From Xiphophorus maculatus (lineage: Eukaryota > Chordata > Actinopteri > Cyprinodontiformes > Poeciliidae): a stretch of DNA of 64,000 nt. The number at the start of each line of letters is the position of its first letter. The stretch's first letter is position 1. The stretch spans positions 2,996,802-3,060,801 of the forward strand of contig NC_036445.1 of NCBI RefSeq assembly GCF_002775205.1, given 5' to 3'. The notes below the pieces were generated by a model that did not search any database, was not told where the DNA came from, and was given only the letters and a program-made list of their open reading frames with translations. This document shows, one piece after another, positions 4,631 to 42,306 of the stretch. The position numbers and the translations under genes are program-made.

Positions 4631-7600
4631 TTATTTCTTCTCTATCGGTGCCATTTCCTCATACACATGTTCTGGTTCTTTACTTCTTTGTGTAGCTGCA
4701 AAATTCTCATAAACATGACCTTCTTCCTTATTTTTCTTTATTCTTGGCATATTTTCATAATCATGTTGTTGCTCTGGGAAGAAAAATATTTTAAACATGT
4801 GTAACCAGGATCATTTTCTATATTAGATTTAGTTTATTTTATTTTCCATTTTGTTAGATTTATTTTTTAAAGGGTTACTTAAACATTTTTTCCTCTTCCC
4901 CTTAATTTATTTAACACCAACCAGGCGAGAACAATAGTGTTCTCGCGTGGCTCTGACGTCATGTGACAGCTGCACATCAGCGTCCTAAATTGGCAGCACA
5001 GTTTATATGGCTGCAAATCGCAGCTTAGGCAGGAAACGCTGCGGGACTCTGATGTGCAGGTAGGCTTCTGGTCTGTTCCCGACGAGGTTTTCAGATCTCT
5101 ATTGTCTGTTTTTCAATCGTGTGTGTCTGTTAACTTGCAGCCGGGTGATTACTCAACCAAACGTTGCAAGAATCACGGTTAGTCAAGAGGGAACTGGTGA
5201 GTGTTTGGTAGGGAGCTAGTATGCTAGCACTAGTCTTCCAGCCTGTTGTGATTGTATATTGATTTGTTGCGTAACAATATTGGTTGCATAAGTTATATTT
5301 ACTTATGAAACGTCTGCACATGTAACTGATTAATTAGGTCTGTTTATACAGGCCAGGTGCGTTGCAGATCCCTCGCGCAAGGAGTGGCTGGAGGGATCTT
5401 GACAATAGCAAGGATTGTCTGGTTTCACCGACCAGACTGGCGAGCTAAAATAAGCAGGATACCGAAACACAAGACTTATCATCTGGGAACATTCTTCCGA
5501 CCCAATTGGAGGATCAGCTCAAGTCCCCATTGAAGGAAGTGGATTATTTTGGTTTTTTTTCATCATCAACAAAGACTGGTGGACGTCCTTGGTATAAGGA
5601 ACTTTAACTTGTTTTTCCTTTACACTATGGACTAATGTGTATATATATTGTAAATACTAAATACAACTCACCAATTTGCACCATCTTACTGTCTCTGTGC
5701 TTTACAAATTGCCATCTCCTCCAGTAGCCGAACCTAGCTAGACTTTAAGAACTGTTTGGATAAATTTTAATTCGGATTATTTAAAATCTTGTTAATCCTT
5801 GAACGCAATGTGGGTTACACATGACATTTAAAATATTTTCTTAATTCAGGTATAAATGATAAGGCAGTTTAAGGTATTTCCTTGAGCTTTGTTGTAAATG
5901 ATGCAAGTTCCCTAAAATATTTTCATTTACAATGGAATCAGTTACTAGGAAAGTGAAGTAATTGAGATTTACTGTTTTTTTGAATGGAGTGTAAACAAAC
6001 TAACCTGTTGTGCCTGAATGTGATGGAGGTTTCACATTTTCTCTAAAAAGCCCATATTCAGAGAAAAGATATTGTTAAAATGTGTTAATCAACAGACTCA
6101 TCATCATTAATTTCTGGAAGGTAAAACTAGACTCAAGAAATGTTATAATGCAGGTAGGATAACTTATATATGACATACAAGAGAACATAATTGAGACAAC
6201 TTGTGATAAATATGGATAACTGAGACAAGACTTCTGTGATGTTATCACAGTTCAGCATGAACTGCGCTCTACTGTAGTTTAAAAAGCTTAACATACAAAA
6301 TGTATTATTAGTTACATAAATAAACTCACCTTCTTTTGTAGATGAAATAGCCTCCAGCAGCTCCTGCAGCAACAACTAACAAACATGTAATTACTATTCC
6401 AGCAATGGCGCCAACAACGAGGCCTGCAGGTTTACTAGCATCTAAAATATAGTAGAAAAACAAAATTAGGCCTATATATATATATTTTTTTTTTATCATA
6501 ATGAAATTATGAACAGACATAGTAGTTACATTGTATTTGTTACACATTGACAAGGGTACGTAACATTTATGGTAACTCTTAAAGGTGGTGTATTCACAGT
6601 GTAGGTGTTGGCAGTTTTTAGCAATATGAGAAAACAAAATCAAAATAACTGCGTAGGAATGGCTTGACTTAAAGATTTTTCTGCTTTTATGAAATCAAGA
6701 CTATCTTTGATCAGCTCAAAATCTAAACTATATCTGAAGTTGTTAAAACAAACAGAATTACTATAAATGTAGGCTATTTTAATAGTTTAGAATTTGTAAA
6801 ATCATTATTTATTAAAAAAATAATTAAATGGGGAATCTGTAAAGGACAGAAAAAAAAATACCAGGACAAATCCTATACAAAGAAACACTTGATAATGAAT
6901 GGAGTACAGGACCAACTGGAGCTACTGGTGTAAAATCACACAAACTACATTTTAAAAGTTAAATAAAAAAACTAACTAAAATTCCTTTTCTCATTTATCT
7001 GGCATTTAGCTATTGGAGATAACTTGTAAAGGATAAACATTTAAACCACTTTTGTACAGTTTTGATGTTTCACATTTTCTTTTACTTTATTATACTTACC
7101 CACTATAGAGATAGGTGAAAGTTGAGATGTTTGATATCTTGAGGTTATGTTATTAAAGGCCCGACAGCTGTAGTTTCCACTCTGATTCTTCTGAACATTG
7201 AGGAGTTCAAGCTCAGATCCAGAACCAGACAGAACGTTTCCATTAAAGAACCATTCAAAAGTGGCATTAGGTCTGGAGTCAGCTGAACAAGACAGACTGA
7301 TGTTCGACCCTTCTGGATATTTTTGAGATTGTGATTTTAAGTTGACTTTCTCTGGACCATCTGCAATTGTAGAAAACAATTAATTTGAATTCTTTCTATA
7401 TGTTAATATATAGCAGCTTTTTTAGTGTAATGTTAGTTTAACTTCATTAAAAAAATATTACAAACAATTGAAAAAGAAGTGCATATTAAAAGTTCATTGG
7501 ATCCCCTATGTCATTACTGACATGATTATTTTGGTATATTTAACAATATTTTATAAAAATGATGACATCTTACTTCATCTAATTTGAAACTATGTGTTTC

Positions 7601-10600
7601 TGATATTTTCCCAAATAAAGTAGGAATAGTAACAAATAAGAGTTGTTCTGATTAAGTTTCCATTATTTTAACTTCAAAAGAAGCTTATAGTGATGAAAAA
7701 CTCACAGCTGACAGAGACGTTTACAGGATAACTCTTGGCACTGCTGACAGGATTGGACACATTACAGCTGTAAGATCCATCATCATATCTGTTCACATTG
7801 ACTATAGTCAGCTTGGATCCTCCATCAGTGATCTGAACTCTGTCACTGGTTGTGATCTGAGAGCTGCTGTTCATCCAGAGGAAGGAGAGAGAAGAACCAG
7901 AGGAGGAGCAGGAGAAGCTGACAGACCCACTGAACTCAATCAAGTCGGTAACGTCTTGAGTAACCTTTACATTAGAGACTCGTTCTCAGTGGAAAAAACA
8001 AAAAGAAAGAAATTGTACGTGATAATCAAGTACAGCTGAAGAGAAATTTAATCAGAAGAGAAAAAAATCATGACAGAAGACGTGGACTAGGTATCTCTAC
8101 AAAAAGGTTTTTAGGAAAATTAACTCATATTGTATAGTAACATTACTAATGTAAAACAGAGGTAGAGCTTTTGAAAACATTGTCATACCTACCATGTACA
8201 GAGACAGGTGAAGGTTCAGATGTTTGAGATATCAGAGTTTTGCTATTAAAGGCCTGACAGATGTAGTTTCCACTCTGATTCATCTGGATATTCATCAGTC
8301 TGAGCAATGGACCGCTACTGGTCAGCTTGTCTCCATTCAGAAACCACTGATATTCAGCAGAAGGTGATGAGTCAGCAGAACAGGTCAGATTAATGTCTGA
8401 TCCTTTTTCATGATGTTCCTTAGATGGATACACTTCTATTTGTACATTATCTGGACCATCTGAATGTAGAAACAGCAATATGTAAAGAAAATGTTATTTC
8501 ACTGAAAAATTTATTCAAATCTTAAAATAATTATGATAGACAGTCAAATGAAGTACTAAGAAAGTTTAAAAAATACATTAAATAAGCAAAACCTTTAAAA
8601 TTATATTTATATAATGGCTGCAGCAGAGTTAAACAGATGTTGAGCATTTAGATGAACAACTTACAACTAACAGAGATTTTTACTGGATCACTGATGAAAG
8701 AACTGACAAGATTAGACACATGGCAGGTGTATGATCCCTGGTCATTTCGGGTCACATTTACTATTGTCAGATTGGAGTTTTCTTCATTTGTGTTGATTTG
8801 AACTCTGTCACTGGCTGTAACCTCAGAGCCGTCTTTCATCCAGAGGAAGGAGAGAGAAGATCCAGAGGAGGAGCAGAACAGCCTGACAGAGCTGCTGAAC
8901 TCAATCAAGTCTGCACTTAGCAGGAAGACATTTACATTGGAGACTGGTTCTGTTGGAGGAAACCAAAAATTTCCAATTTAAAATTACATTTTATAAAAGG
9001 AAAAACAACCATGAGGATCATTGTAAAGACATAAGACTGCTTTTCACAAATTAAGCAATGTGAAAAGCCCATTCTCAGCTTAATGCTTCAGAATATAGGT
9101 TTAGAAAAAAAGAGTTTCCTTAATAATAAAACATTTTATTTAAAGGTGCCTCAAGCACACCATACAAAATACATCAAATAAATTAAAAGATACATTAGTA
9201 AAATCATAAAATCAGCTGCTTAGAAAGAGCAGAAGGCAGTTTTAAACAAATGTGCTTTCAGTTGTAATTTGACTTTATATATAATAATAGAATCAAAGAA
9301 ATACTTCAATAGGACTGCTGGCAACAATTGATATATAGAAGCTAACAATTAATAATGTAACTAAATTATATCTATAATTCTATACTGCTATTAATTATTC
9401 ACAAGACCTACAGTATGTGCTGTTATAATTTGAGGTCATATAAACACATACAGTGTTGAAACAAGATGTCAAAAGATAACATAGAAAATAAAAGTTTAAT
9501 TAGTCAAAACAAAAATGTCTAATTAAACATAATGGGCTTTCAACATCTACTCACCATAAACATTCAGTGTGGTGCGTCCTGTCTTTTGATTTATTCCATC
9601 TTGAATGCTTACTATGTACTCTCCACTATCACTGAGTTTCAGATTCCTGAGTTCCAGAGATCCAGTTGATCTGAAGAGAGTGATCCTGCCTTCATATTCT
9701 GGTGCAGTTGTGTCTCCAGTAGACTGTGAGAAAATTATGAGTTCAAGTCCTGAACCAGGATCAAACTGCCAGTTGACCAACGTAAATGGTGTTTCTGTTG
9801 GATTCAAGTTTGTTGTGAACATTAATGTCCCTCCAACAGAGGCATTCAGAGGACCATCTGGTAACACACCAACTCCATTAGATAAACCTGGAGGAAACAT
9901 TTTAAGAAAGTAATTCAGTGATAATTTAACAAAACACAAAAATACACAAAGAAACCCCAGAAAAAATATGGAGAATTCATTTTCAGAATGACTGACCCCA
10001 TCTTCCCATCCTACTATATTAACTTACATTATTGTCCAATTTTGCAAATTTATAATTTTTGTTTTCTCTCCCTGTTTTTCTCTCATAAATAGTTTGACTG
10101 GTCAAGTGTTTGTTTTTTGTGTCTGTTTCTCCTCCCTTTTTTATCAACATTAAGCAGCAGAACCCTCCAACGTTTCTTAGGTCTACCAACCTTTCACAAC
10201 ACTGAATCTCTTACCAAAGTTTTTCTTAACCTAATCCACTTTTTCTTCTTACTGGTAGGGGAACTCACTATTCAGAAACATGAGATTTTGTTAATTTACC
10301 ACAACATGCTTTCTGCAGGCATACACAATGGGAGAAAAGTAAGCTACAGATTCATTGTAATACTCCTGAAGTATTCACACATATAATTTGGAGAAGAACA
10401 AAATTTCTCTGGCACCTTCACTAGAACAATAAATTCCTGGATGCATTTACTATTGTTAAGTTACTATTATGTTTTATGACTGAACTCCTACTAAAGAAGT
10501 CAAAGAAGATAAAAAACAGTATGTGGTTCCATTTTTGCTCCAAGAAGTATTATTACATTTAAGTTATTTTAATTCACTGAATCACGTATTTAACATAAAC

Positions 10601-11441
10601 TTCTCATGATCTGAAAAACATAATTTGTTGAGTTCATATAATTTCAGTAAGTTTTTTGAAAAATGTCCAGAAAACAGGAAGAAAACATCATCCAATGCTA
10701 AAGTTCTTCCATTGACTCCCTGTAGTTCAGAGCATAGACTTTAAAATTTCTGTTAGTTTATAAATCACTGAGGACCAAAATATATGAAATTGTGCTAACG
10801 GCTAAAATACACTGCTTTGCCTTGATGTGTCTTCAGTCAATATATAAAATATTAATATTTTAAATAAGTTTAAAAAAATGTGTATTTATTTTTCAGAGAA
10901 AATAGATTAATTTGTTTGACAAGCAAAGCTAAACTTTTATTAAAATTTCACACGTGTAGGTCAGTTTTGGGACATCTTGATTTATTTTATTGTTGCACAT
11001 TTGACTTTATGCTGCGGTCCAACAGTATTTTTGCTAACTGTTTATGTGACATTTAGTGAGTTCTTAATGCAATGGGCTGAAGCTTTCTTTAGCTGTTGAG
11101 ATTCTGCAGTGTTTTCATGGGTTTATGAAAGAAATTTGAAAAACAGTTATTAAATCATACATTTTTTATGGGCAGCGTATTTTTTATTGTATTATAGTTA
11201 AAAATAATTTGCAAGATACAGATAATTTTCATATTAATTGTTTGTAAGTTCAACTTTATTCATATCACACCTTTAAAATATAAGAATTACACTAACTTCT
11301 GTAATTAACAGTACCACCAGATTTGCAGGTCAGTAAAGATTTAACCAACATTATGAAAATCTTTTCATCTAATATTTTCAGTGACAAAAACTTACCTATT
11401 ATAATTCCAGGGAGGATGAAGAATAAAATTGATGTTTTCAT
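4631..11441 (-). CDS. gene A: CEACAM-like receptor, N-A1-B1-A2-B2-TM, triple YENM/YENF/YEEM tail
   Basis: Nine exons (minus strand): 11441-11396 leader, 9887-9555 V/N domain, 8949-8665 A1, 8459-8193 B1, 7984-7706 A2, 7360-7100 B2, 6441-6330 membrane, 6042-6005, and 4773-4631 tail. Together they make 1764 nt, 587 codons plus stop. The leader is [12 protein letters not shown]. The N domain (about 16-126) has the V-set Trp and DSGEY but no cysteine. The four C2 domains (about 127-490) each keep the Cys-Trp-Cys pattern. The membrane segment (about 498-524) is followed by YKRR. The tail (541-587) is three 16-residue units with tyrosines at 546 (YENM), 562 (YENF) and 578 (YEEM). Ectodomain exons are phase 1-1. 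The likely role is a surface adhesion or immune receptor; Grb2/PI3K coupling is inferred from YxN and YxxM. The A2 acceptor is a weak GAG at 7985. Exon limits were read by eye against paralogs. Confidence 0.82.
4798..5821. mobile_element. candidate solo LTR in gene A intron
   Basis: A block of about 1024 bp, richer in GC than its flanks, begins TGTGTAACC and ends GGTTACACA. These are perfect inverted ends in the TG...CA form typical of LTRs. A TATA-like TTTATATGG lies at about 5002. No protein is encoded. The flanking pentamers (AAACA and TGACA) match at only three of five positions, so a target duplication is not proven. It sits between gene A's last two coding exons. A TIR-bounded DNA element is the alternative. 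Confidence 0.45.
10690..10800 (+). mobile_element. degenerate LINE reverse-transcriptase fragment
   Basis: In one plus-strand frame, interrupted by two stops, the sequence reads like the C-terminal LINE reverse-transcriptase motif (...[10 protein letters not shown]...), as left by Rex/L2-type elements in fish genomes. It lies in gene A's first intron. It is short and decayed, and the assignment rests on motif memory only. Confidence 0.45.
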
Positions 11442-15784: not shown

Positions 15785-17272
15785 TTAAAGTTATGACAAT
15801 TCTAAGGGCCCCTGACCAACAAGGGGCCCTCCACAATTTTCTTTTGTTCATAGAAATTAAAAAAATGAGGCCCTGTCAATTACAAAATGAATTATATTGT
15901 GTTTTCTAAACTTGTTTTTAGCAGTAAAAATATAATTTTACCCCTCCCAGACCAAAAAGGCACATATTTGCCCTGAACCCCCGATGGATCTGGATGAAAT
16001 GGTTCGTTCCTGCTTGGAGGTCTTAACGATGTTCAGCAGCAGTCAGTGGAAAACAAGAACGACTCTGGCAGTTACTGTGCTGCTAAGAAAAATAATAAAG
16101 TAGGTTTTCAAAAAATAGAGAGACAGAGAGAGAAAAAGGTAAAAGTGTCAATTTGTAAACCAGTTTTTCTCCGAGAGGTGGGTAGACTGTGTGAGATTAT
16201 CAACCATTCAGCAAAGTTAGCTTAGCTACAGACTGTTTGCCTCCATTTCACTAAGATAGAAATTACCAACATATTCATATATTGAACTTGTACCTATACT
16301 TTTTACCACTTAACAGCAGATGAGTCAGTCAGCAGCAGCTCTAACCCACGTCCCTCCTGACCTGCCCTCTGCTAAGTGAAATTAAAGCTGCAGTATGTAA
16401 CTTTTATATTTATTTATTTTTTACATATTTGTTAAAACTGTCATTATGTTGTCACAGTATGGCATGAGAGATAATTTGTGAAAAATCTATTTCCTCTGCC
16501 TTTTCCCAGTACTATCTAGAAACACCCAATCAGAGACAGGAGAGTTTTAGTGCTGCCAATCACAATCTCATGTTGCTGCTCATCCCTATGCTGCAGCTAG
16601 CACAGCCTGTTGTAAATGCTCAGTCTAGTTAGCATAGCTACCAATGACAGCAGATAAGCATTTTCCCTGTAATGATAAGTTGTTTTTCCACTATTAGTAC
16701 ATTTAGAAGTGAGTGAATGAGATTGATTGACAGCACTAAGACCCTCCTCCTGGTTCTGATTGGTTGTTTTTGTCCAGAACGTTGCATTACTTTAGCCAGT
16801 AATAGCAGCTCAGGGAGCAGGAGAAGGATATTGATTGTTTTCACAGATTATCTGACATGGTGACAGCTTTAACAAATATGAAGAAAACATATTTTTTATT
16901 AAAGTTATATACTGCAGCTTGAATAAAATGCAACTACATAGCATTTTTTGAGAAGTCTGGATTGCTTTATGTATATTTTGCATGTTGCCTATGACTGTTG
17001 CTCGTGAGGAGAGACCTTTCAGTAATCTAAAACTAATAGAAAAAATTTAAGCAACCTACTTGAACGCTGTATTCAGACTGTTGCATGTAAAATTCATGAG
17101 CAGTAAATATTATGTTAGTATTAGTATTGGACCAAAGAAAGCAAGGCAGTTGCAAGCCTTTAAAATTGTGATGCATTTGGTGGGTCAGATGAACTAAAAA
17201 AACTGTAACAGCAGCTGCGCAGGGGGGGGCAATTAAATTTTTTGTCATGGGGCCCAAGACTCCTGGCGGCGC
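15785..17272 (+). mobile_element. hAT-type element, copy in inverted orientation to 23211-24675
   Basis: About 1.5 kb matches, as the reverse complement, the element inside gene B at 23211-24675. Shared landmarks include ACAATTCTAAGGGCCCCTGA, the pair of CAATCAGA blocks, and CATGGGGCCCAAGACTCCTGG. One end (GGCGGCGCCCATG, near 17272) resembles the terminal inverted repeat of the other copy. The other end diverges near 15795, so this copy looks truncated or rearranged. It encodes a remnant of a hAT transposase C terminus at 16988-17050. Confidence 0.75.
16988..17050 (+). pseudogene. hAT transposase C-terminal dimerisation remnant
   Basis: The frame reads [20 protein letters not shown] and then a stop. 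This matches the V-x-R-x-ERSFS-x-LK-LIK-type signature at the C-terminal end of hAT transposases. No other transposase domain is seen in the surrounding 1.5 kb, so only the end of the gene remains. The inverted copy in gene B (about 23440-23503, minus) has a disrupted version. Confidence 0.6.
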
Positions 17273-27400: not shown

Positions 27401-29630
27401 CTGGCTGGGATGTAAGATGCTGAGTCTGTTTGGCCTGTCTCATGGAGCCATGGAGGAATGGAGGACAATGAAACTTCAGGCTAATGGGAGACATTTTATT
27501 TTATCTTATGTAGCAAATAACATTTGCAACTGATGATTTAAATCTGCGTTTATGGCTCCTGTCTAATTCATTGCAGACGTCATTTCTTTCTTTGTTGTCC
27601 TGCTTAGTCCTGACTAGACTAGCTTCTCAGTAGTAATGTTACGTGATGTGCCGAGGCTTCGAGGCGTGTGTCGAGTAATGGAGGGGGCGTTTCCGTAAAG
27701 CGCGTATCGAGGCTTGCTTCATTTAGGGGAGGAGCCGAAAACGATGACGTCCGAAGCCTCGCTGCCTGGCTGTACCACGTGACTGCTTCGGGAAGTGGCT
27801 CAGAGTTTGGCGCGGGGTTTGACAGCTTTAGAAACCCCACAGGCTCCATTCAAAATGTGGGTTGTTGTAGGCGAGTTGCGGTCAGTTGAGAGAGTGGATA
27901 GAGTTTTGATAGTTTGGATAGCAGAGTTTGGATAATGGTTATTTAGTTTGAGACAGTTAGTTTGGTGTTGAGAGAGAGAGAGAGAGAGATATTTAGGAGC
28001 GCGAGGACAGGATAGGAGAAGGATGGAGCCGGCGAGAAAGAGGAGGATTTCCCCTCATCTTTCGAATTGATAAGCCCTAACAAGGTAGGGTGAACTGAAC
28101 ATTTGCAGATGCATTAGGTTTGCTTATGAGGAACTGTATTTTTCACTGTTTCTTATTTTCTGTAAAGGTGAGGTGTTTATTGTGCTCCAAGGAGTTGGGG
28201 TACAATAATAACACCTCATCCATGTAGTGTCAAAAAAGAGAAATCGTTTGAAACCAAAAACTGTGGAGAAATTGTTGTTTCTTAATAAAAATGCATGAAA
28301 TCATCCACGTTACACAAGCATTAGCCTATTCACTACCCCCTCCCTAGTTCCACAAGCACTTTCACTGTCCTCTGCCTGATTAAGCCCAGGCCATTTTTCT
28401 AGAGTTATAGAAAAACATTATTACACAACATGCCATATCACATGACACTACTATTTTGGGAATAATTACACACAGAGAATGCATTCAAACAATATTTTAT
28501 TATACACATATGTGTATACATAATTTATGTAGACAAATGATTTCGTCCTACACCTTTTGTGAAGTCCTTCCCAAGAGCCATAATAGACAAAAATTCAATG
28601 CATCACACGTATTAAGATACAGCTGGCTGTGATTATACACCTGGCCAGTAGGTGGTTTCGTGTGCACATGAAGCCTCAAGAAATGAACCCTTTCTCGAAC
28701 CAATTGGCTCAAGTGGTTCAATGCCTCATGAGGCTTCATCTCACCATCACTACTTCTCAGACTGTCATGAAGTGCGGTGCAGGTGGTGGTGAGGCAAACG
28801 CTGTAGACCCGATAAATGAATGATTTTAATGAATAATGTCCAGAAACCTGGCAGCACAGTCGAGCGGAAGGCTAAGGCTCAGCACTGGTAGCAACAGGCT
28901 ACACGCATGGACAAGACGCATTGACAAGGACCCGACAACACACAGAGACACAGGTGAGACTAAATACACAGGAGGCAATCAGGGAACGAGAAACACCTGG
29001 GAGCAATCAAGGGGAAGACAGGACAACATGGAGACTCGGAGACACAGGAAACTCAATAAACACACAGAAAAACACGGAACATGACACAGACAAAGTCACG
29101 ATTGTAGGTTGTCTGATTTTGTGAAACTTACTTATGTATGGATTAAAAGTTATCCTTGTTTGTCTCTGATTTAGACCTTGAGCAAAACTAAAAGTTATTT
29201 ACTTTTAATAAAGAAACATCAATCTGTTCCAGACTATAGCTAATTCTGTTTTGTTGTCTGCTTCAAATGTTTCTAATTTGTGAGCTGTAGTTTAGTTACT
29301 GGCATATAGATTTTGTTGGATTTGTCCATAAATCCAGCAAGTTTTTTTTATTATCTGCTATATAAGGAATGTGGTAAAAATATGTTTCTGAATTTGAAAA
29401 TAAATAAATAAATAAATAAATAATCAAAATATTAGGCATGTCAGCAAAATGTATTTTGTAAAAGTCATTGTCATCCAAAGTTATTCAATAACTTCTTTCA
29501 GTTAAATTCTGTCAACAGAGTTTTTAAGAGTTGTATATTTTCCAAAAATAGAGTAAAATCATGTATCATGCTGTAAAAACTCACCTGCCATGGCTCCAAG
29601 GATGGTTAAACATATTTTTGCTGTTTCCAT
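18424..29630 (-). CDS. gene B: CEACAM-like receptor, N-A1-B1-A2-B2-TM, single YENM tail
   Basis: Nine exons (minus): 29630-29585 leader, 26804-26472 V/N, 25593-25309 A1, 25099-24833 B1, 23061-22783 A2, 22529-22272 B2, 20360-20258 membrane, 19024-18987, 18461-18424 tail. They total 1647 nt, 548 codons plus stop. Ectodomain exons match gene A almost base for base, apart from a one-codon deletion in B2, and introns around A1 and B1 are also near identical, so this is a recent tandem duplicate. The leader ([16 protein letters not shown]) instead resembles the pseudogene at 1495. The N domain has no cysteine. The membrane segment ([20 protein letters not shown]) ends in HKK. The tail stops soon after one YENM (Y542). 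The gene is enlarged by two hAT insertions and other inserts. Role: surface immunoglobulin receptor, function inferred only. Confidence 0.82.
21535..22095. repeat. insertion in gene B intron, absent from gene A
   Basis: Between the B2 and membrane exons, gene B has about 560 extra purine-rich bases relative to the aligned gene A intron (6830-6940), including AGAGAGAGACAGAGACC. The flanks on both sides still resemble gene A. No open protein or transposon signature was recognised. Boundaries are approximate. Confidence 0.5.
23211..24675 (-). mobile_element. hAT-type transposon in gene B intron, 8-bp target duplication
   Basis: This 1465-bp insertion lies between the A2 and B1 exons. It is flanked by perfect direct repeats CTCAAACT (23203-23210 and 24676-24683), the 8-bp duplication expected of hAT. 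Its ends, CAGGGTCGCCA and, on the other strand, GCGGGGCGCCA, are imperfect terminal inverted repeats. Gene A lacks it at the matching intron position, so it inserted after the A/B duplication or was lost from A. The hAT C-terminal remnant lies on the minus strand near 23440-23503 and is broken. Confidence 0.8.
27631..28752. mobile_element. non-autonomous hAT-type element in gene B first intron
   Basis: A 1122-bp element flanked by the perfect 8-bp direct repeats CTTCTCAG (27623-27630 and 28753-28760). The ends TAGTAATGTTA and, on the other strand, TAGTGATGGTG are imperfect inverted repeats of the TAGTGATG form common in hAT elements. Inside are a GC-rich part (27650-27890) with GAGGCTTCGAGGC and an AG-repeat at 27971-27990. 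No transposase was seen. The paired open frames at 27619-27889 on opposite strands reflect GC composition. Confidence 0.8.
28845..29095 (+). repeat. interspersed repeat family, copy 2
   Basis: Shares GGAGCAATCAAGGGG, AGACAGGACAACA and AACACACAGAAAAAC-type blocks, in the same order, with 13105-13400 and 60295-60475. It begins at CCAGAAACCTGGCAGCACAG, just after the hAT element. Two overlapping open frames here are low-complexity products of this repeat. Confidence 0.65.
29402..29424. repeat. (AAAT)n microsatellite
   Basis: About six AAAT/AATA units in the first intron of gene B. Confidence 0.9.
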
Positions 29631-29831
29631 CTTATTCCAAGTACAAAAAGAAAAGTTTTTCTTTTTGTCTAGTTGACCACTATTGAGTTGCACGAGCTAC
29701 TTGAGAACAAACATATAAGGAAGTGAAACAGCTAAATAGGTGAGAGGATCATTGACCTACATTTATCAATCATTTACAAGTACTTGTTTTGGTCCCTTGC
29801 TCCTTTCTCTGCATTTTATACAATAAAAACA

Positions 29832-30056
29832 AATATCCATCCATCCATCCATTTTCTTCTGCTTATTCGAGGTCGGGTATCGGGGTAGCAGCTTAAGTAG
29901 GGAGGCCCAGACTTCCCTCTCCCCAGCCACTTGTTCCAGCTCCTCCGGGGGAATCCCAAGGCGTTCCCAGGCCAGCCAAGAAACATAGTCCCTCCAGCGT
30001 CCTGGGTCTTCCCCGGGGTCTCCTCCCAGTGGGATGTGCCCAGAACACCTCACTGC
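29832..30056 (-). mobile_element. LINE 3' end with ATCC repeat tail
   Basis: The minus strand encodes GRWRDYVSWLAWERLG, then PPEELEQVAGEREVWASLL, and then stops, followed by (GGAT)n, seen as ATCC repeats at 29834-29852 on the plus strand. This C-terminal end plus tail is a very common fish non-LTR retrotransposon 3' terminus. The 5' part is missing, as expected of a 5'-truncated insertion. Confidence 0.75.
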
Positions 30057-30561
30057 TATTTCTCAAAATTGTTTTTTTTCTCAAAAAAAACTATTTTTGA
30101 GAAATAGTAAAATTTCATAAACCTTAAATAAATATGTTTTTGTGTACTTTGAGTGTCTATGAGAGCAAAAAATTTAAATGTATTCTGTCCCGGAACCGCA
30201 TAGATATTTTTATGTTCTTTTTTGGATCATATCTTTCAGCCTGCTCAGTCTTCTTCACTTTGTATTATGTTTTCTTGTCTATGACGTCACTACATTTGCT
30301 GAGTAATTCCTGAACAAAGTCATGACATCAATTTTGTGACTCCGCCATTTTTTCCCTCTTAGCGATTTTGAGGTGCTGAAGTTGCAAGATGTCAAGTCAA
30401 AAGGTTTGGTTGTACACTCTAAAAAGAAATTAGTTGAAGCAACTTAATTGAATTGCTTCAATTGGTAACAAGCAATTTAATTAAGTTTAACAAACTCAAT
30501 TTATTATAATCATCCAACTCAATTTGTAAATTTTTTTAAACAAATTTATTAAGTGTCTTTA

Positions 30562-32088
30562 CACCGTGTTCCAAATTATTATGCATATAGGATTTAAGTG
30601 TCATAAAGATACATTTTTTTGATGTGCTATTAAATTTATAGATGGTATTATGTGTCAGGGCTCTTTGAATCACTATAATTAATTTCAGAGAGCTTGGTTG
30701 ATTAATTTTTCTGGTGAGCTCAATTTAAGGAAATCTACTTAAGAAGGATGTTCCACATTGTTAAGCAATCCACAAGCTTCAAGCAGAGAAAGGATCTCTG
30801 CTGACGAAAATCATCAGATAGTGTAGTGCCGTATGACAAGGTATGAAAACATTAGATATTTAACGAAAACTGAAGCGTTATCGTACTGTGAAGAGATTTG
30901 TGGCTGATTCAGAACAAAGATGGGTTTGTACAGATAAAGGCAGAATGAGGAAGGTTTGTGTTAGACAAATTCATCAGATTAAGAGAGCAGCTGTTAAAAT
31001 GCCCTTGAAAAGCAGCAAACAGTTATTTGAAGCTGCTGGTACTTCTGGAACCTCAAGGTGGAGGATCCTCCAGAGGCTTGTGGTGCATGAACCTACTATT
31101 CAGCCACCCCTAACCAGAGCTCACAAGCATAAATGGTTGCAGTGGGCCCAGCTGTACATGAAGATTAATTTTCAAACAGACTTGTTCACTGATGACTGCT
31201 GTGCAACCCTGGATGGTCCAAATAGACGCAGTAGTGGATTGGTGGTGGATGGCCACCACGTCCCAACACAGCTGTGACGTCAGCAAGGAGGTGGTGGAGT
31301 CATGCTTTGGGCTGAAATCATGGGGAGAGAATCAATGGTCGGCCCCTTCAGAGTCCCTGAAGTTGTGAAAATGACCTCAGCAAAGTATATGGACTTTCTG
31401 ACTGATCACTTTCTTTCGTGGTTCAAAAAGAAGAGCCGTACCTTCAGTAGCAAAATCATCTTCATGCATGGCAATGCACCATCTCATGCTGCAAGGAATA
31501 CCACTGTGTCATTGGCTGCTATGGGCATGAAAGGGGAGAAACTCATGGTGTGGTCACCATCCTCCTCTGACCTCAACCCTATTGAGAACCTTTGGAGTTT
31601 CCTCAAGCAGAAGATCTGAGAGTGGAATGCAGTTCATATCAAAACAGCAACTATGGGAAGATATTCTGACATCCTGCAAAGAAATTCAAGCAGAAACTCC
31701 ACAAACTCACAAGTTCAATGGATGCAAGAACTGTGCAGGTGACATCAAAGAAGGGGTCTTATGTTAACATGTAACTCGGTCTGTTAAGATGTTTTTGACT
31801 GAAATAGCTTTTGATTTTAGTACATGTGACCACTTAATGCTGCACATTCAAAGAATGACCGTTTGCAGTTCTTTATAATCCATAAAATGTTTAGAAAATC
31901 TGCTGTGCATAATAATTTGGAACAGTGCATTTTGAGTTTTTTATTTTTGAAAAAAATACTGTTCTCATGGTGAGCTTTGTTCAGTAAAATTTGATTTATA
32001 CTGTATCATGACTTGAAAATTATACTGACCATCATTTGCATTGACCATTTAAAAAAATATCACTTGCATAATAATTTGGAACATGGTG
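30562..32088 (+). mobile_element. Tc1/mariner-type transposon with IR/DR ends
   Basis: A 1527-bp element flanked by TA on both sides. Its outer inverted repeats are about 25 bp with one mismatch, CACCGTGTTCCAAATTATTA at the left and CACCATGTTCCAAATTATTA at the right. A further related copy sits inside each end (about 30750-30766 and 31906-31925), the IR/DR arrangement of Sleeping Beauty-like Tc1 elements. It carries one broken transposase gene. Confidence 0.88.
30860..31765 (+). pseudogene. Tc1-like transposase, inactivated
   Basis: The frame shows a Tc1-type helix-turn-helix region followed by the DDE core. The first acidic motif is FTDDCCATLDGPN (Asp codon at 31191). The second should contain Asp-Asn-Ala-Pro-Ser-His but reads HGNAPSH, so the catalytic Asp is Gly (31470-31472). 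The third is DLNPIENLW (Glu codon at 31584). A stop at 31275-31277 is in frame, with the same reading frame continuing as QQGGGGVMLWAEI. Another stop follows at 31617-31619, after which homology continues in shifted frames. The gene cannot make active transposase. Confidence 0.85.
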
Positions 32089-33155
32089 TAAGATGACAGA
32101 TCTAAGTCAGTCTTACTCAAATCATTAGTTTACTTCAAATAATGACTTAAATTAATAAAGGATCTCTTTTTGCAAAGGGTTTTTGGCTGAGGCAGCCTTT
32201 ATTTGAGCGTAGTTATTCAGGAAAATGGTTAATGACAGAGAGGAAGACCTGCAGCTAAGGTCATCAAACCTCCGGAGGTTTGATGACTATAAGTTGGAGC
32301 CGTACTATGACTATAGTTGGAACTATAAGTTTGAGTTGACTTTCTGTAGAATGAATTCAAAGAGATTTAAAATATTTATTAGAACAAAATAAATGATTTG
32401 AGTAAGAGTGACTTAAATTTGTCATGTTAAGCCCCCTTATGAATTAAGTTATAAAAACTTAGCAAATTGAGATGGAAGGACTTAATGAATTGAGTTGGAT
32501 GATCATAACAAAAAAGTAAGTTGTCATAGCAAAAGCAAAAGAATTAAGTGAAATTAATGTAAAGAAGTCCATAAGATGAACTGCAGTCCAAATACACTTT
32601 TTAGAGTGTTTGTCATGGACAAAGAGTGATTGAGTAAAATTCAAAACGCAACGCAGTCCAGCAGGAGAGCCTAGACCCTCAAGTAGTGTTGGGTAAGGGG
32701 CTAATTTTTTATAAATGTATGGAGGGATAGTAGTTTAAATTTATTTTGATATATATTATGTAAAAGTTGGCTAATATAGCCTTAAAATCTGGATAAATAA
32801 ATTGCAAAGAAAAAGGTTGGAGTTTGAACTTGTTAAATAATGTATTGTATTGAATAATCTGTAAGCCCAGGCTGATTCTTATTAAATTGACATTTTCTTT
32901 TCCCATTTTGAAGTAGTCATGAAATATAGTGTACCTCTCTGTTTAGATCACACAAAAAATACATATTCACCACGAGAGGGAGCCGTCAAGCAATTTTTTA
33001 CTCCAGTGGGACATGCAGTAGATTCTCAAGGTGGCTCTCATTACTGTAATAATTTACAGCACTAAGTGTGTACCATTCATTGCAAAGCTTTTCTAAGTTT
33101 CAGTTCGAGTCCTGAGCTGTCCTTACACTGACACCTCTGAATTTAAATCAAAGCA

Positions 33156-36100
33156 ATGTTTCAACCGCTTTTTGTCATGGTTTTGGTTTTTATAGGTAAG
33201 AGACTCGTATGAGTGAAATGTTTTCAAGCCTCTGTCTAGTTTTTTTATCATGTAACAACCAGCTAAACTTTATTCTTAAACAGAGCTCAACATGATTAAA
33301 ATATACCTAAAATATTAGGTACATATTTTCAGCATTTTATAGAAGGCTAACCTTTCATTTCTATCCAGATTTGTGTTTTGACCTTTTAAGCCATTTTTAA
33401 TACTGCATTATACTTGTAACTGTTTTTCAGGTTTATCTAATGGAGTTGGTGTGTTACCAGATGGTCCTCTGATTGCCTCTGTTGGAGGGACATTAATGTT
33501 CACAACAAACTTGAATCCAACAGAAACACCATTTTCATTGGTCAACTGGCAGGTTGATAATGGTTCAGGACTAGAACTCATAATTATATCACAGACAACT
33601 GGAGACACAACTGCACCAGAATATGAAGGCAGGATCACTCTCTTCAGATCAACTGGATCTCTGGAACTCAGGAATCTGAAACTCAGTGAGAGTGGAGAGT
33701 ACATAGTAAGCATTCAAGATGGAATAAATCAAAAGACAGGACGCACCACACTGAATGTTTATGGTGAGTAGATGTTGAAAGCCAAGATTCAACTAACACG
33801 TTTCAGTCTCTAAACTTTCACTGCAGTTTATTTTTTCACCCTCCATCCATCTTATAGCCATTTAAACAAGTCAGAGCTGTAGGTTATTATTATGAGCTTT
33901 GAACTATTCTAAATGTATTTTGTGGGAAGAAGAATTAAGGAATTAAATGGAATGGTCTACTACATTGTTTAAAATCAGATTTCCTTCAGGGCATTTAAAA
34001 TTACATTGGTCAAAATAAAAAAAGAAAATAAACTTGAGGTTTTATCAGGAAAGCTCAGAAACGGGAAACATGATCAGTTGTGTTGTTACTTAGACATTGC
34101 TTTCAGCCTGTTACATGCTTTCAGACTTACCAATGAAATTAATGTTTATCAAGCAGTTTTGCCAAAAATGTTTTTTTGTTGACATGCCTAAAAAGTACCT
34201 TGAAATGAGTAAATGGTAGGAAGCAGAGTAAATAATTCCTCTAACATTTATGGTAGAGTTTGCTGATTGAAGATTTTTCCTTGTCAGTGCTGTACTAGTT
34301 TTCTATTGTTTCCAACATGTCATATTATTTGATTAGGGATATAAAATAAAACTGACATGGTTTGATGGAAGTTGACTTAAAATTGTCAATTTTAAATCAA
34401 CTTCCATCCATTATGACTGTTGTCACTTTATGACAACAGTCATAAATATTCATGAAGACTTACTCATGTTCATGATAGGTGTTATGTCATGTTTATGACG
34501 GTGTCATGACTGTCTTATTCACAACGCGTCAAATAAAGTGGTTTTTATAATTTCTCCCATGTTAAGATTTTTACTGTTTTTTCATGAAGAGAAATACAGA
34601 GGAGATTGTTTTCTTGTATTTGATGACAACAACTTTGGTTTCCTCCAACAGAACCAGTCTCCAATGTAAATGTCTCCCCACTAAGTTCAGACCTGATTGA
34701 GTTCAACAGCTCTGTCAGTCTGTTCTGCTCCTCCTCTGGATCTTCTCTCTCCTTCCTCTGGATGAAAGACGGCTCTGAGGTCACAGCCAGTGACAGAGTT
34801 CAAATCAACACAAATGAAGAAAACTCCAATCTGACTATAATTAATGTGACCCGAAATGACCAGGGATCATACACCTGCCATGTATCTAATCTTGTCAGTT
34901 CTGTCATCAGTGATCCAGTAAAAATCTCTGTTAGTTGTAAGTTGTTCATCTAAATGCTCAACATCTATTTAAATCTGCTGCAGCCATTATATAAATATAA
35001 TTTTAAAGGTTTTGCAACTTTAATGTAATTTTTTATTTATTAACTTTCTTAATATTTAATTTATATTTATTCTTAAAATAATGGTAATTATTTTAAGAAT
35101 TGCTTCTACACAAATAACATATGGAATTATTTATCATTACTTTTTCAGTGAAATTAATTTCTTCACCTATTGCTGTTTCTATACTCAGATGGTCCAGATA
35201 ATGTACAAATAGAAGTGTATCCATCTAAGGAACATTATGAGAAAGGATCAGACATTAATCTGACCTGCTCTGCTGACTCATCACCTTCTGCTGAATATCA
35301 GTGGTTTCTGAATGGAGAAAATCTGACCAGTAGTGGTCCATTGCTCAGACTGATGAATATCCAGATGAATCAGAGTGGAAACTACAGCTGTCAGGCCTTT
35401 AATAGCAAAACTCTTCAATATCAAACATCTGAACCTTCGCCTATCTTTGTTCATGGTAGGTATGACAAATGTTCTTGTAAAAAGAAATATATGTTATAAA
35501 ACTGAGCAGCAGCATCACTGTTAGTATTGGAAAAAAGATTACCGTATAACACCTTCAACATTATTATAGTCCAGAACAATTACAGAGCCAAATTATTTTG
35601 ATTATTTTACAAGTATTGGTGGCTACATTAATAATCATATTAATTTAATAACATAAAAGGACAAAAATGTCAACACTGCAACCCATCCTATAGAAAGGTT
35701 TGAAGCATGGAGCTAAAATTCACCCATTAATCGTCTATACTAGCGGCTCTACATTATGTTGCAAATTTAAGGTTATGAGAACATCTCTGTGGGCAATATT
35801 TATATAGCTAACATCTGTTCACTTATTATTTAAGTACAATGCATTGAAGCTCTATGTATTTGGTGACACTTTTTAATGCAGCATAATAAGTTCTGCAAGA
35901 TAAAGAGGTGGTAATGTGTTGAAGTCGTGCAGCCAAATTTTTGATGCTAAAGCAGATGCCACAGGTAACTTTTTAATAGAACCCTTCTCGTTGAGATTAA
36001 AATATTAACTCATGATATTTTATTCTCTTGAGCATGAGAAAGTGAATGATGAGTCCCACTTGTAACTTTCTCCACAACCTGCAGTCAGACATTCACTAAG

Positions 36101-39100
36101 GAAAGTGGAGAGATATGGGAATGTTTTCTGAAGGCAGCGGAGGAAAAAGTCAGACAGGAACATGGATAGCAAACTTCAGACCAAAATCATTGTATATGTT
36201 ACCTTCCTGGGTAACTTCAGACTTTTACTTTTATTTCCTTTCTGCTTCATTTCAGTATTTTTGGTAGCTGACAGTTCCATTCAGCCTTTGAGAAGCTTCA
36301 CTGCTGTGTGATCTTAGGCTCAGTACCTTTTTAAAAATATATATATTTTAAGTAATGCAGTACTTACTTATAATGGGTATAAAGTTAATTTTCTCCTTAA
36401 CTTATAAAGTCACATATATGCTTTTTCAAAGACATACCGTATGTTTTTGTAAAAAGTCAAAAAATTTAAAATCTAAGAGGTCCTTGAAAACTAATTTCTC
36501 TTCAAATTTATATTTTATTGGACTAAATTCAGTGGGATAAAATTCACCTTAAAGAAAAATGACTTCAGTTTGCTAAAATGTGTAATAAAACTAAATTGCA
36601 TTTTAACAAGATTATTATGATACAGAAGTTTTAAACACACATTGGTACTAATAAAATACTCAAAGCTATTTGATATAACCGCAGCCTTTGTTGTAGGCAC
36701 AGGGATACTTCTAATAAATAGTAGAAAACACATTATCTGGCAAAACAAAAATAATCACAAAAAAGTAACACTTCAATATTTTCTTGGATTGCCTTTAACT
36801 TTGATAACTATATATATGCACTGTGGCATTATTTCACTATGCTTCAGCAACATTGCAAGATTTGTTTTCATCCACTGTTGCATTAATTTTTCACCAAGAT
36901 CTTGTTTTGATGATGGGAGAGTAACGTCCAAGCAGCCAAGCTGCAGTCGAGCTGCAGAGCATCGAAGGCATGAAAGTTTACAACAATACGGAAAAAGAGC
37001 CAGTAGATTTATCACTAGTTGTTGAAAAAATTTGCCTGAGGATACTGAAAAATTGATAAATATAGTGACAAAGTGGATAAGTTAACAGTGGTTTTTTCAA
37101 CACAGCGTCACATATCCCCTCCGCTTATCCCTACAAATGGCCTTGCCTCTTTTGTGAGGGTTTATTCTTTCACAGGGTTTGGAGTTCAGTTACACTAACC
37201 AAAGTTATTTACAGACTTTTCAGGCCCCTCTATTGACTTCAATACAACAACTAGTGAAGAATCTAGTAATTATTATTTTTTTCTGTGTTGTTGGAGACTT
37301 TTATGGCAACAACTCTCTGCCACTCAGCTGCAAGCAGCCTGTCTGTGAGGTGCTTTACTCAGCACTGTTAGTCTGACATAGTCATTCGTTCAACACCATA
37401 CCATCTGCAGTAGTAAGAACAGAGGAGACTCATTACACTCTGTGTTCACATTGCAAACAAATCATACATGTGCAAGGCTCCGTAACTCTATCGATCTATG
37501 TTCGCTGCCTCACTCTTGGCTCACTATTCCAACTACTGACAAGCCACTGGGCAGGGCTGCTGTGTGTCCGAGTGAGGTGGTGATATAACTGAATGCAGGG
37601 CTGAGGGACGAAGTTGGACCAAGCTGTACCGCTGCAACCAATAGGAAAATTGAACTGGCTAAGAGTCGTTCAACTGATGGAGATCAGCACTGAGATGGTT
37701 TAGGAAGAAGATTGCAGAAATAAACATTTACACAAAAATGTAAATGTAAATCTAGCTAAATAACATAAGTAACCTAAATAACCTATTTAGACAGTTTTTC
37801 AGCAAGATAAGTTCATTTAATTACATTTTTAAATCAATAGCATTTCTTAATTGCATTACAGCAATTAATCTATTTATAATTAAATAGATTAATTGTAGAT
37901 TAACTTGTATGAGACATAAAAGTTAGCATATTTTGATCATTTAAGTCCTTCAGGGTGAAAGACTTCAAATCATGTCTCTAACTGAGCCACTCCAAATCAT
38001 TTATATTACTTTCACTCAGAACAAAAATTCTTGTGCAACTATAAGATTACTAGAAATCTAAATAATCCAGTGATACAAATTATTTTGGGCTTAACTGTAC
38101 CTCAGTATTTCATATTTTGATCCAAATGAAAAAGTACCTCCAAATGATATGTAATTGATTTAGACATCTTAATATAAGATATGACCCTTCCAACATTTTG
38201 TCAGTATACATTTAGAAAGTTGCACAGTTTCATAATAGATAAACCTGTTCATTAACCCCCTAACTTTCAACATTCAGCAGTATATAAAAATTATTAAGAG
38301 TAAATATGAATATCTTCTACTAAAAGTTGTCTGTGATTGATTTTTATTTTTCTTTCCACCCACAGAGAGAGTCTCTAATGTAAAGGTTACTCCAGACGTT
38401 ACCCACTTGATTGAGTTCAGTGGGTCTGTCAGCTTCTCCTGCTCCTCCTCTGGATCTTCTCTCTCCTTCTCCTGGATGAACAGCAGCTCTGATATTTCAG
38501 CCAGTGACAGAGTTCAGATCACTGATGGAGGATCCAAGCTGACTATAGTCAATGTGACCAGATATGATGATGGATCTTACAGCTGTAATGTGTCCAATCC
38601 TGTCAGCAGTGCCAACAGTGATCCTGTAAACGTCTCTGTCAGCTGTGAGTTTTTCCAAAGCTATAACATCCTTTTGAAATTAATACATTTATTGGAGCTT
38701 AACACCTGTTGTTTGTTGCTATTTCACTATTTGAAAAAATATGAGAAACACGTTTTTAAAAAGTGAGATCAAGTAAACCACCATCATATCTGCAAAACAT
38801 TATCAGTTAATGATGTCAGTAAGAACATTGGCCATCCAATAAACTTTAAATATGTGCTTCTTTTTCTAATATTTGTACTATTTCTCTTAGTGAAGCAGCT
38901 GTTAAACTAACAATACACTGAGAAAGCTGTTTATGAGTTTAATGCGGCAAATTAATTAATATTAATTGTTGCAGATGGTCCAGAGAAAGTCAACTTAGAA
39001 GCACCTTCTCAAAAATATCCAGAAGGGTCAAACATCCATCTGTCTTGTTCAGCTGAGTCCAGACCTAATGCCACTTTTGATTGGTTCTTTAATGGAAACC

Positions 39101-42100
39101 TGTCCGGTTCTGGATCTGAGCTCAAACTCACCAATGTTCAAAAGAATCAGAGTGGAAACTACAGCTGTAGGGCCTTTAATAACATAACCTCAAGATACCA
39201 AACATCTCAACTTTTAAATATCCCTATAGAAGGTACCTCTACAGAAGGTAAGTTACCTCACACTCAACAACTTTAAAAATACTTTAGTTGTATTTCATGT
39301 GATGGACCAACAAACGTAGCACATTTTGGTAAAGAAGACGAGAAACAGCTTTCAAAATCGTTTACAGATGAAAATCTCAAAAATGTTTTTGTATTCATTT
39401 AAACCAAATACTGTAATTATTTCACAATGTACAAAAATGAACTGCTCTCAACTAGTTAAAGGGAACACATTTCTCTTTTATTTTCACTAAAAATATCAAG
39501 GTTAAAATAGCTATTTATTTTACTTTAGAATAATTTAAATTCTTATTTGAAATTGCATGAGCAAAATTTCTGCTTTAATAATGAATTTTAGTGAACATCA
39601 CAATAAACTCCAAAAATATTTAATGTGAACAGGACATTATCCTTAAACTTTGCTAATGCACAAGAGTGAGATCAATGTAACACACTTCCATCTCACTCAT
39701 GGTGCAACACAGGATACAGAAACATGCTGCTAGGCACTCTGGTAAATAGTTCCCACTCCTGTCTTTTTCTTCTTTCTGTTTTTTAAATGGAAACCTAAAA
39801 ACGCTCATTTATGTAACTCTTGAAAGTCTGACAAAATTAATAAATGTTAACTCAACTTACTTTTGTAAGTTTATCTTTCAGAAATAGACACATTTAGGTT
39901 CAAAATTTAAAACCTGCTAAGTTTATTTGACAATAAAAGAAGATAATAGACAACTGAATGCGGCTCAAATGATTTAGATAGTGGGTTGTTTTCCTGACAG
40001 AAGCTGAACCTCCATCCCAGAGTCCAGTCTTTTCATAGTTTCTCCAGTATTTTCCTTAATTTAGTTCTTTCCATCATAACATAAACTCCAACCAGGTTCC
40101 TTGTCTAATTAGAAGAAACTATCCCAACAGCATTAGTCTGTAACAGACATCTTTTACTGCTGGAATGGCATTTTTAGGATAATGTGTTGGGTTAGACAAT
40201 TAAATTTATCTAAACGGGTTAGTGAACTAAATTTATAAAGTACATTTCCAGTCATACTGACCTCTCAAAGTTCTTTACTCAACTCACACTCATAAATGTG
40301 TTGACATTTATACACTGATATGCAGATCAATAGGCAGTTTAAGTTGGAATTTCTTATGTGATGGGCTGGTTCAATGGTAGAGGTGTTAGATAATTTCTAT
40401 GATACTATGTATCTCCACCTCTCCCCCTCTCTCCTGAAAGCATTACCAGTACCGTCCCTTCTAATAGGTTTGATTGTGCCAATTATTTCAGTGGTTCTGT
40501 TCATGGTCTGCAGTTCTTTGATTGTGTTATTTCACAGCAGAAAAGAGTCTGAATCATAATTGTTACAAATATTCACATCCATTACTGCTGCTTGTTTTGT
40601 GTATAGAAATAATATGCTTATGTCAACGTATTGTGTAACTTGACAGTTTTGGACAGTGAACATATTTTTCTTTTTTATTGCTTTTTAGGAAACAGATTAT
40701 CCGCTGGAGCCATTGCAGGAATTGTAATTGCATGCTTAGTTTGCGCTTCTTTAATTGTTCTTGGAGCGTACTTCATACTTAAAAAAAAGTAAGTGGAAAA
40801 TAGCCGTGAAAATAATAAAAAAAACCCTATGTAATTAATAATATTGTCCGGCTAAAATGTTTTTAGATTATGCCTTAAAATGTGATCAAAATGCCACAGT
40901 TTATGTTTCTTGACAATGCACTGCTTTTGTTTTCTAGCTATACTTATAATTTTGGGTTTGACTGTATGTACTGTCATTTGTATCTTATTAATGCTTTCAA
41001 TATAATTGCAAATGTAAAACAATATTAATGCAGTAATTGTAATTACATTATTTTATATATGATTCTAAATAACTATAGAAAACTAGGAGAGGAAAACAGA
41101 GTTTGCTGAATATTTATAAATAACTTACTCCGTTTTTTTATTAATTTTTTTATCTAAACAGAAATCCTTGGGGGAAAACCTCAAATAGAAATATTTCAGC
41201 AGGTAAGTGTGCAGTTGTTGATGTGTGTCTATTGAGTATTATTCAGTATTCGTTGTTTAATTTTAATTTATCTATGAATTACAGGTGGGAACAGACAAGA
41301 TAATGGTGTAAGTAGTAATGAGGTAAAGATAGTGCAATGCTATACTATGTTTCATGTTTCAATGTTTCATACTAAACCTTGTTTTAAAATATGGTTAAAT
41401 AGTCACAGTCTGTAGTAGCAGTGAAAGACAGGGTAACATCAATTTGTTGTTCTATGATTAGAAAGTTTAGAAAATCTACACTTTTAAATAGAAAGGTGCA
41501 AAGTTGCTTAATAACCGTATACATTAGTAACTAATGTGACATTTTTCTAAATTTACTATAAAAAATTTATTGATATCCATTTGATATTTAACTCGGTCCT
41601 TTTATTAATGATTTCCAACCTGATGTTGCATGATTAAGGATGATCTAAAAAGGTGATAGAGATTTCATAAGAATCAATTCATCGAAGCAATCAGAAGTCG
41701 CCAAGACTCTCTGAATCAGGGGGTTTCCTGATCCCCTTTCACACATGAGATTTTTTTTTATGATTTAGCTAAAAAATAATGCTGAGGTAGTTCTTTTCCT
41801 CAGCTTCTTCACTGACAAGTGTGTACAGAAGGAGTTGGACGGGACGATGAAAAACAAAGTACTTCACGGTTTCTTGGGAAATGAGCTCGGTAGCTTCAGC
41901 AGGAATTTTATTGATTGATGGTCCCCACCCACTTCTGAGGTGAAAATACAATACAGCCAGGCCGAAGGGGGCCGGGCCAGGCCTGCAGTGCAAAAAGTCA
42001 CAATGTTGGACTTTAAGCCTGGGAAACTAAATACAGCTCGATACATCTCTAGTGTATTTCATTAAGTGCTTGTTTGAGGAATTGGTCAATCGTATTTTAT

Positions 42101-42306
42101 GCAGCCATGATAATGCAGCCAGTTTATATATTCAACAGTATTGATTTTTAAATAAGATGTTTCTCACAAATCTTTTTTTTTCTACCATACAGGAGCTAAC
42201 CTACGCAGATGTCAGGTTTTCTAAGAACAAGAAACCTGTTCAAGCCCAGTGGGAATCAGACAACCCCTCATCAACCTACGCTGACATCAGGACCAACAGA
42301 AACTAA
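33156..42306 (+). CDS. gene C: CEACAM-like inhibitory receptor, N-A1-B1-A2-B2-TM, two ITIMs
   Basis: Ten exons: 33156-33195 leader, 33431-33763 V/N, 34652-34936 A1, 35189-35455 B1, 38366-38644 A2, 38975-39247 B2, 40689-40788 membrane, 41162-41202, 41285-41307, 42193-42306. They total 1755 nt, 584 codons plus stop. The leader is [14 protein letters not shown]. The N domain (14-124) has no cysteine, and the four C2 domains match genes A and B. The membrane segment includes [20 protein letters not shown] and ends in KKK. The tail has two ITIMs, LTYADV (Y551) and STYADI (Y576), 25 residues apart, so SHP-1/SHP-2 recruitment is expected by family knowledge. The plan resembles CEACAM1 with an extra B domain. 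Alternative in-frame donors exist at 39233 and 41323. A distant AATAAA lies at 43612. Confidence 0.85.
34364..34444. repeat. two adjacent perfect or near-perfect hairpins
   Basis: 34364-34385 pairs with 34387-34408 (GATGGAAGTTGACTT arm), and 34412-34425 pairs with 34431-34444 (TATGACTGTTGTCA). It is followed by a TCATGTTTATGACGGTGTCA block of a type often seen in fish repeats. This is likely a MITE remnant in the intron between gene C's N and A1 exons. Confidence 0.6.

Follow-up and report, generated by a model that had tools for sequence, protein, structure and literature searches.

A candidate CEACAM paired-receptor set with homogenised head exons and two classes of signalling tail in Xiphophorus maculatus

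We analysed a 64,000-nucleotide (nt) stretch of the Xiphophorus maculatus genome (assembly GCF_002775205.1, contig NC_036445.1, positions 2,996,802 to 3,060,801), which is called the window below and contains no N bases. The region from 4631 to 42306, that is, from the stop codon of gene A to the stop codon of gene C, holds three receptor genes (A, B and C) with five immunoglobulin (Ig) domains each. Genes A and B lie on the same strand and C on the opposite one, and B and C stand head to head, with start codons at 29630 (B) and 33156 (C), an arrangement already recognised in the first-pass annotation of this DNA. The gene models are given below, with the Ig exons named N, A1, B1, A2 and B2, the transmembrane exon TM and the cytoplasmic exons Cyt.

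4631-11441, minus strand: gene A, spliced frame open; exons signal 11441-11396 (predicted), N 9887-9555, A1 8949-8665, B1 8459-8193, A2 7984-7706, B2 7360-7100, TM 6441-6330, Cyt1 6042-6005, Cyt2 4773-4631
18424-29630, minus strand: gene B, spliced frame open; exons signal 29630-29585 (predicted), N 26804-26472, A1 25593-25309, B1 25099-24833, A2 23061-22783, B2 22529-22272, TM 20360-20258, Cyt1 19024-18987, Cyt2 18461-18424
33156-42306, plus strand: gene C, spliced frame open; exons signal 33156-33195, N 33431-33763, A1 34652-34936, B1 35189-35455, A2 38366-38644, B2 38975-39247, TM 40689-40788, Cyt1 41162-41202, Cyt2 41285-41322, Cyt3 42193-42306

Each spliced gene has one stop, which is terminal, and GT/AG borders were found in all 25 modelled introns (8 in A, 8 in B and 9 in C). 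The exon set N-A1-B1-A2-B2, which had been proposed as common to the three genes, was borne out by locating and splicing the exons: N (333 nt), A1 (285 nt), B1 (267 nt) and A2 (279 nt) have identical sizes in A, B and C, and B2 measures 261, 258 and 273 nt, respectively. For A and for B, a motif scan gave a single candidate signal exon; that of C was read by eye and was recovered by the same scan. Because the signal exons are short (40-46 nt), the N exon probably encodes the end of the leader, as in CEACAM genes. In all three genes each Ig exon is in phase 1 and encodes one domain, in keeping with the exon structure and phasing that CEACAM genes conserve.

CEACAM proteins have an IgV-like N domain followed by alternating A-type and B-type IgC domains, and this order is found here. 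When the ectodomain of C was compared with solved structures, CEACAM5 (E 2.7e-88), CEACAM1 (4.7e-49 and 5.5e-49) and CEACAM6 (8.6e-39) took ranks 1-4 of 217 matches. The CEACAM match spans several domains in order, and the Pfam V-set and Ig_3 domains were found. On these sequence comparisons A, B and C are CEACAM homologs, beyond analogs. The translated N domain has no cysteine, and its AlphaFold model, built on 5 sequences of the window, was of poor quality (mean predicted local distance difference test score, pLDDT, 53.5). Rfam gave 0 matches at gathering thresholds, and the NCBIfam models, which are bacterial and archaeal, gave one chance match (E 0.14). Synteny marker genes of the LIPE/PAFAH1B3 and BCL3/TOMM40 type were not identified in the list of open reading frames of the window, which is too short for this purpose and in which no dedicated search was made.

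Transmembrane and cytoplasmic exons

The TM exons are homologous across A, B and C. The first-pass annotation described three different tails, with unrelated tail exons in C; this is true of the cytoplasmic exons of C, but not of its TM exon, and the tails of A and B proved to be related. The motifs themselves were as described, including two immunoreceptor tyrosine-based inhibitory motifs (ITIMs) in C. The two exons that carry the signalling motifs of A and C are the following.

4631-4773, minus strand: Cyt2 exon of gene A, three tandem 48-nt units (EQQHDYENM.., EEGHVYENF.., EPEHVYEEM..)
42193-42306, plus strand: Cyt3 exon of gene C, LTYADV and STYADI, both of which match the ITIM consensus

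In gene A, one motif (YENM, YENF, YEEM) stands in each 16-residue unit, and the tyrosines are 16 residues apart. Pairwise comparison of the 48-nt units showed 27, 30 and 27 of 45 nt identical; therefore, the triplication is not recent. Cyt2 of gene B has a single YENM and no ITIM, as read by eye in its translation. The unit of B agrees with units 1, 2 and 3 of A at 22, 19 and 23 of 27 nt, and the alignment of the last exons of the two genes continues through the stop, at 77.8% in 90 columns. Thus, the tails of A and B form one homologous class, and the set has two tail classes. A tblastn search of the window with the tail of A returned A itself (7e-30) and then B (E 0.11), with nothing better elsewhere; the tail of B returned A at E 0.014.

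In CEACAM1-like receptors, the third and last cytoplasmic exon carries two ITIMs, or one ITIM and one immunoreceptor tyrosine-based switch motif (ITSM), and gene C has this structure. No second copy of its ITIM exon was found in the window by tblastn with Cyt3 (next match E 0.26, with an internal stop). The TM and tail of C had no significant match among solved structures (best E 0.15, the DAP12 transmembrane segment). An 11-residue stretch presumably resembles the human CEACAM1 transmembrane segment. A pattern search of the tail of A found no ITIM, ITSM or immunoreceptor tyrosine-based activation motif (ITAM), the last even when a spacing of x6-12 was allowed.

The YxN motif binds Grb2. Such binding has also been mentioned for marsupial CEACAMs (PMC2832619), and the YENM of LRRC25 has been described as a motif for phosphoinositide 3-kinase (PI3K) (PMC6107485). 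However, YENM, YENF and YEEM of A and YENM of B all match the consensus Yxx(L/M/V/I/F), which has been named an endocytic, ITAM-like motif (PMC2832619), and YEDM and YENM of CD19 have been called potential AP-2 motifs (PMC2228374). Together with the absence of an ITAM from both genes, this could mean that A and B serve in endocytosis or adhesion, that their tyrosines are AP-2 sorting signals and that they do not oppose C. We consider this unlikely, though it deserves serious weight: the residues of YENM at +2 (N) and +3 (M) are those expected of Grb2 and PI3K sites, and the sorting and PI3K/Grb2 roles are mutually compatible. The YENM-type motifs may just as well stand for PI3K/Grb2 co-stimulation or for uptake through clathrin, and the earlier suggestion that one ligand could drive opposite outcomes through these tails is qualified accordingly.

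A possible alternative membrane exon of C was observed at 40441-40559 (plus strand). It is phase-compatible, has a good acceptor tract and encodes a hydrophobic stretch, a short charged end and a stop; 13 of its residues resemble the TM exon of C (8/13, E 0.11-0.15). Its use would yield a tail-less form of C without ITIM.

Head exons and their introns

We compared the head exons of the three genes with their TM exons and introns. The five-domain proteins, which had been called near-identical, share 430 (AB), 431 (AC) and 430 (BC) of 474 residues, or about 91%. N exons are 97.0% (AB), 96.4% (AC) and 97.0% (BC) identical in nucleotides, and TM exons 69.9%, 61.0% and 60.2%. In the 150-nt flanks of the N exon, the identity of C to A and B is 38.5-55.6%. 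Because 40 random 150-nt window pairs (mean 48.6%) reached at most 63.4%, a chance likeness of the heads is excluded. Variable sites numbered 16/333 in N, 16/285 in A1, 22/267 in B1, 24/279 in A2, 33/258 in B2 and 47/94 in TM.

The number of synonymous substitutions per synonymous site (dS) was 0.018-0.043 in N, 0.135-0.189 in B2 and 0.595-1.795 in TM. Synonymous change differed between N and TM in each pair (Fisher's exact test on rounded counts, P = 6e-7, 1e-7 and 3e-11). Compared with each of A, B and C, the N exon of gene D, a related gene further along the window, is saturated at its synonymous sites, which shows that synonymous sites in N are free to change.

The introns of C are mostly unrelated to those of A and B. 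The S-N (signal to N), B1-A2, B2-TM and tail introns of C had no match in A and B, and the match in the N-A1 intron is limited to 20 nt after N and 18 nt before A1. The A1-B1 intron (about 88%) and the A2-B2 intron (70-75%) do match. The likeness of C to A and B is therefore distributed over three islands.

33431-33783, plus strand: N exon and the next 20 nt of intron, 96-97% identical to A and B and flanked on either side by unrelated sequence
34634-35473, plus strand: 18 nt, A1, the A1-B1 intron and B1, about 88% overall
38341-39247, plus strand: A2, the A2-B2 intron and B2, with the intron at 70-75% and the exons at 91-95%

Since the N exons are near-identical, the introns of C mostly unrelated and the TM exons diverged, we read A, B and C as old paralogs whose heads were homogenised recently. 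Agreement among the genes is patchy along the Ig exons, with 63 runs where 76.9 were expected (P = 0.003). To judge from these alignments, the heads were most likely homogenised in pieces by ectopic gene conversion. Between A and B, a near-continuous block of about 1.8 kb runs from N to just beyond B1, introns included, at 91-95%, so that a crossover or a block copy is equally possible for this pair.

For the whole set, it may be supposed that the ectodomain was copied once as a block, by duplication or crossover, before different tails were joined, without later conversion. The A/B block and the dS step from B2 to TM would agree with such an event. However, a single block predicts one age and matching introns. 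Instead, dS varies among the Ig exons, and the N exon of C is bounded by introns that are unrelated to those of A and B except for 20 and 18 nt, whereas the A1-B1 intron matches at about 88%. This explanation is accordingly improbable for the set.

That A or B is decaying, with its tail out of use, would be suggested by a broken related copy at the left end of the window and by the short tail of B, but it is very improbable: all 9 of 9 modelled exons are open in A and B alike, their GT/AG introns are intact with one terminal stop, and dN/dS (the ratio of nonsynonymous to synonymous change) in TM is 0.23-0.54 in the three pairs. Purifying selection on the protein alone, which would fit N residues 57-111 (1/55 changed among A, B and C), can scarcely account for the heads, because the synonymous sites of N are conserved like the rest, unlike those of TM or those compared with gene D, and dN/dS in N (0.63-1.96) is not low.

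The ratios in N were 1.96, 0.82 and 0.63, with 10-12 changes in each pair, and we do not claim positive selection on this exon. The changed N residues are modestly clustered, with 9/10 within 45 residues (P = 0.015) and 6/10 within 21 (P = 0.06).

Comparison with known paired CEACAMs

CEACAM receptors with homogenised heads have been reported in frogs, reptiles and mammals and are thought to counter pathogens (PMC5112662, PMC13278318, PMC2832619). Zimmermann and Kammerer described Xenopus ceacam pairs in which conversion is exactly confined to the N exon and its splice consensus and whose members are oppositely oriented (PMC5112662). Groups 1 and 2 in Xenopus resemble our set: an ITIM member and its partner or partners have nearly the same N domain, the ITIM gene is inverted and the remainder has diverged (PMC5112662). 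However, the Xenopus partners carry an ITAM or ITAM-like motif, where A and B carry YENM units, and homogenisation here also includes A1-B1 and A2-B2, unlike the restriction to the N exon in Xenopus (PMC5112662).

A 2026 preprint by the same authors reports CEACAM1 and decoy genes of reptiles in an arrangement similar to that of Xenopus (PMC13278318). In the painted turtle, within-species conservation is 95.8% for N, 85.5% for A1 and 73.8% for B1 (PMC13278318). The reptile genes share with ours the most conserved N exon, the opposite orientation and, in comparison with C, an ITIM/ITSM in exon 3 of the three CEACAM1 cytoplasmic exons; the reptile decoys have an ITAM tail over three exons, whereas the tails of A and B come from two cytoplasmic exons and lack an ITAM (PMC13278318). 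The head-to-head layout of B and C and the exon-limited homogenisation fit the features by which CEACAM paired receptors have been defined (PMC5112662, PMC13278318). A near-identical ligand-binding domain with diverged tails is found in all three genes, and a signature of conversion confined to head exons, together with opposite orientation, in C against A and B. Judged by the aligned sequences, the homogenisation signature here is that published for the frog and reptile pairs.

Human CEACAM1 and CEACAM3 are likewise an inhibitory and an uptake member with matching N domains conserved via conversion (PMC2832619, PMC7026191). In CEACAM3 there is a single Ig domain, and phase 0 introns interrupt the ITAM-like motif, YxxL-x7-YxxM; the phosphotyrosine partners of the protein are PI3K, Vav and Nck (PMC2832619, PMC7026191). 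Gene A, in contrast, encodes five Ig domains, and its three YxxM/F motifs lie in a single exon, unsplit by an intron and with 12 residues between motifs. Another feature that sets the partner tails here apart is M or F at +3. The parallel with CEACAM1/CEACAM3 drawn in the first-pass annotation is well supported, and it is more than an analogy since the ectodomains are CEACAM homologs; its paired-receptor interpretation as a whole is partly supported.

Teleost CEACAMs, including zebrafish ceacamz1, form lineage-specific clusters, and some zebrafish members have an ITAM (PMC3628338, PMC4079198, PMC8274849). The zebrafish ceacamz1 belongs to the same family as A, B and C but is anchored by glycosylphosphatidylinositol (GPI) and has eleven Ig domains (PMC3628338, PMC4079198, PMC8274849). 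Fish members with ITIM/ITSM were cited in 2010 as unpublished work (PMC2832619). Among the matches listed from the open-access literature there was none on gene-converted CEACAM pairs of fish, although such a report may exist.

We propose, with a probability of roughly 70%, that A, B and C are a CEACAM paired-receptor set in which C is the inhibitory member and A and B its partners, with heads conserved by conversion and TM and tails diverging. The inhibitory role of C is suggested by its motifs. As in CEACAM1, a ligand would cluster the receptor, the two ITIMs would be phosphorylated and an SHP phosphatase would be recruited. The YENM-type sites of A and B would be expected to bind PI3K p85 (YxxM) and Grb2 (YxN), besides matching the endocytic consensus. 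We infer that the ligand is shared, so that the likeliest role of A and B would be uptake and/or activation by a ligand that is inhibitory through C, which is the decoy arrangement proposed for CEACAM1/CEACAM3. Whether "activating" is the right word for A and B is a matter of interpretation, and endocytosis or co-stimulation is possible. Repeated ectopic gene conversion, perhaps under pathogen-driven selection, would conserve the likeness of the heads as TM and tail exons diverge.

Several results weigh against this proposal. The N domain alone matches structures weakly (best CEACAM1, E 0.00038, with nectin and pIgR about level), and the family placement therefore rests mainly on the A/B-type domains. 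The ITAM consensus (D/E)xxYxx(L/I)x6-8Yxx(L/I) occurs in neither A nor B, the latter having one tyrosine motif as read by eye. The TM dS values were estimated on 26-28 synonymous sites, and the longest-run test for conversion was weak (P = 0.018 for AB, 0.45 for AC and 0.41 for BC). The published inverted-copy model fails for the likeness of A and B, because these two genes have the same orientation.

More tentatively, the partner arm of the set may have evolved without an ITAM, from a tandem 48-nt YENM-type cassette (three in A, one in B) whose number would set the strength of PI3K/Grb2 signalling or endocytosis against C, with the heads conserved by conversion. If the paired-receptor proposal is true, the CEACAM decoy arrangement known in mammals, frogs and reptiles (the last from the 2026 preprint) would extend to ray-finned fish and become testable in genetically tractable fish. 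A stable inhibitory half would then be suggested, with a partner half assembled from different signalling motifs in different lineages. The locus would also be a clear natural case of exon-by-exon homogenisation of receptor heads with tails staying apart.

Other genes and elements in the window

Three further genes lie on the plus strand of the window. Gene D (56160-59549) has signal, N, A1 and B1 exons. As judged by eye, it ends in a short hydrophobic stretch that lacks signalling motifs, and it may be GPI-anchored; its first match among structures is CEACAM5 (E 2.2e-66). Gene E (49969-51837) encodes three Ig domains and a terminal hydrophobic stretch and has a weaker CEACAM likeness, with otk first (E 5.2e-12) and CEACAM5 second (3.2e-11). 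Gene F (62053-62657) comprises a signal exon and the start of an N-type V domain without cysteines, which is 21% identical to the N domain of C, and it runs past the end of the window. The broken copy Z at the left end has a stop in its signal exon, as read by eye, and the match to its N exon breaks off after 44 residues.

An inverted repeat of about 1 kb (16101-17164 and 23324-24417) has the look of a mobile element. Its copies agree at 92-98% over four pieces; one is inside the B1-A2 intron of gene B and the other beyond the stop of this gene. Between B and C lies a broken transposase (30864-31619, plus strand), one of whose two fragments matches DDE_3 (E 1e-7) and the other nothing.
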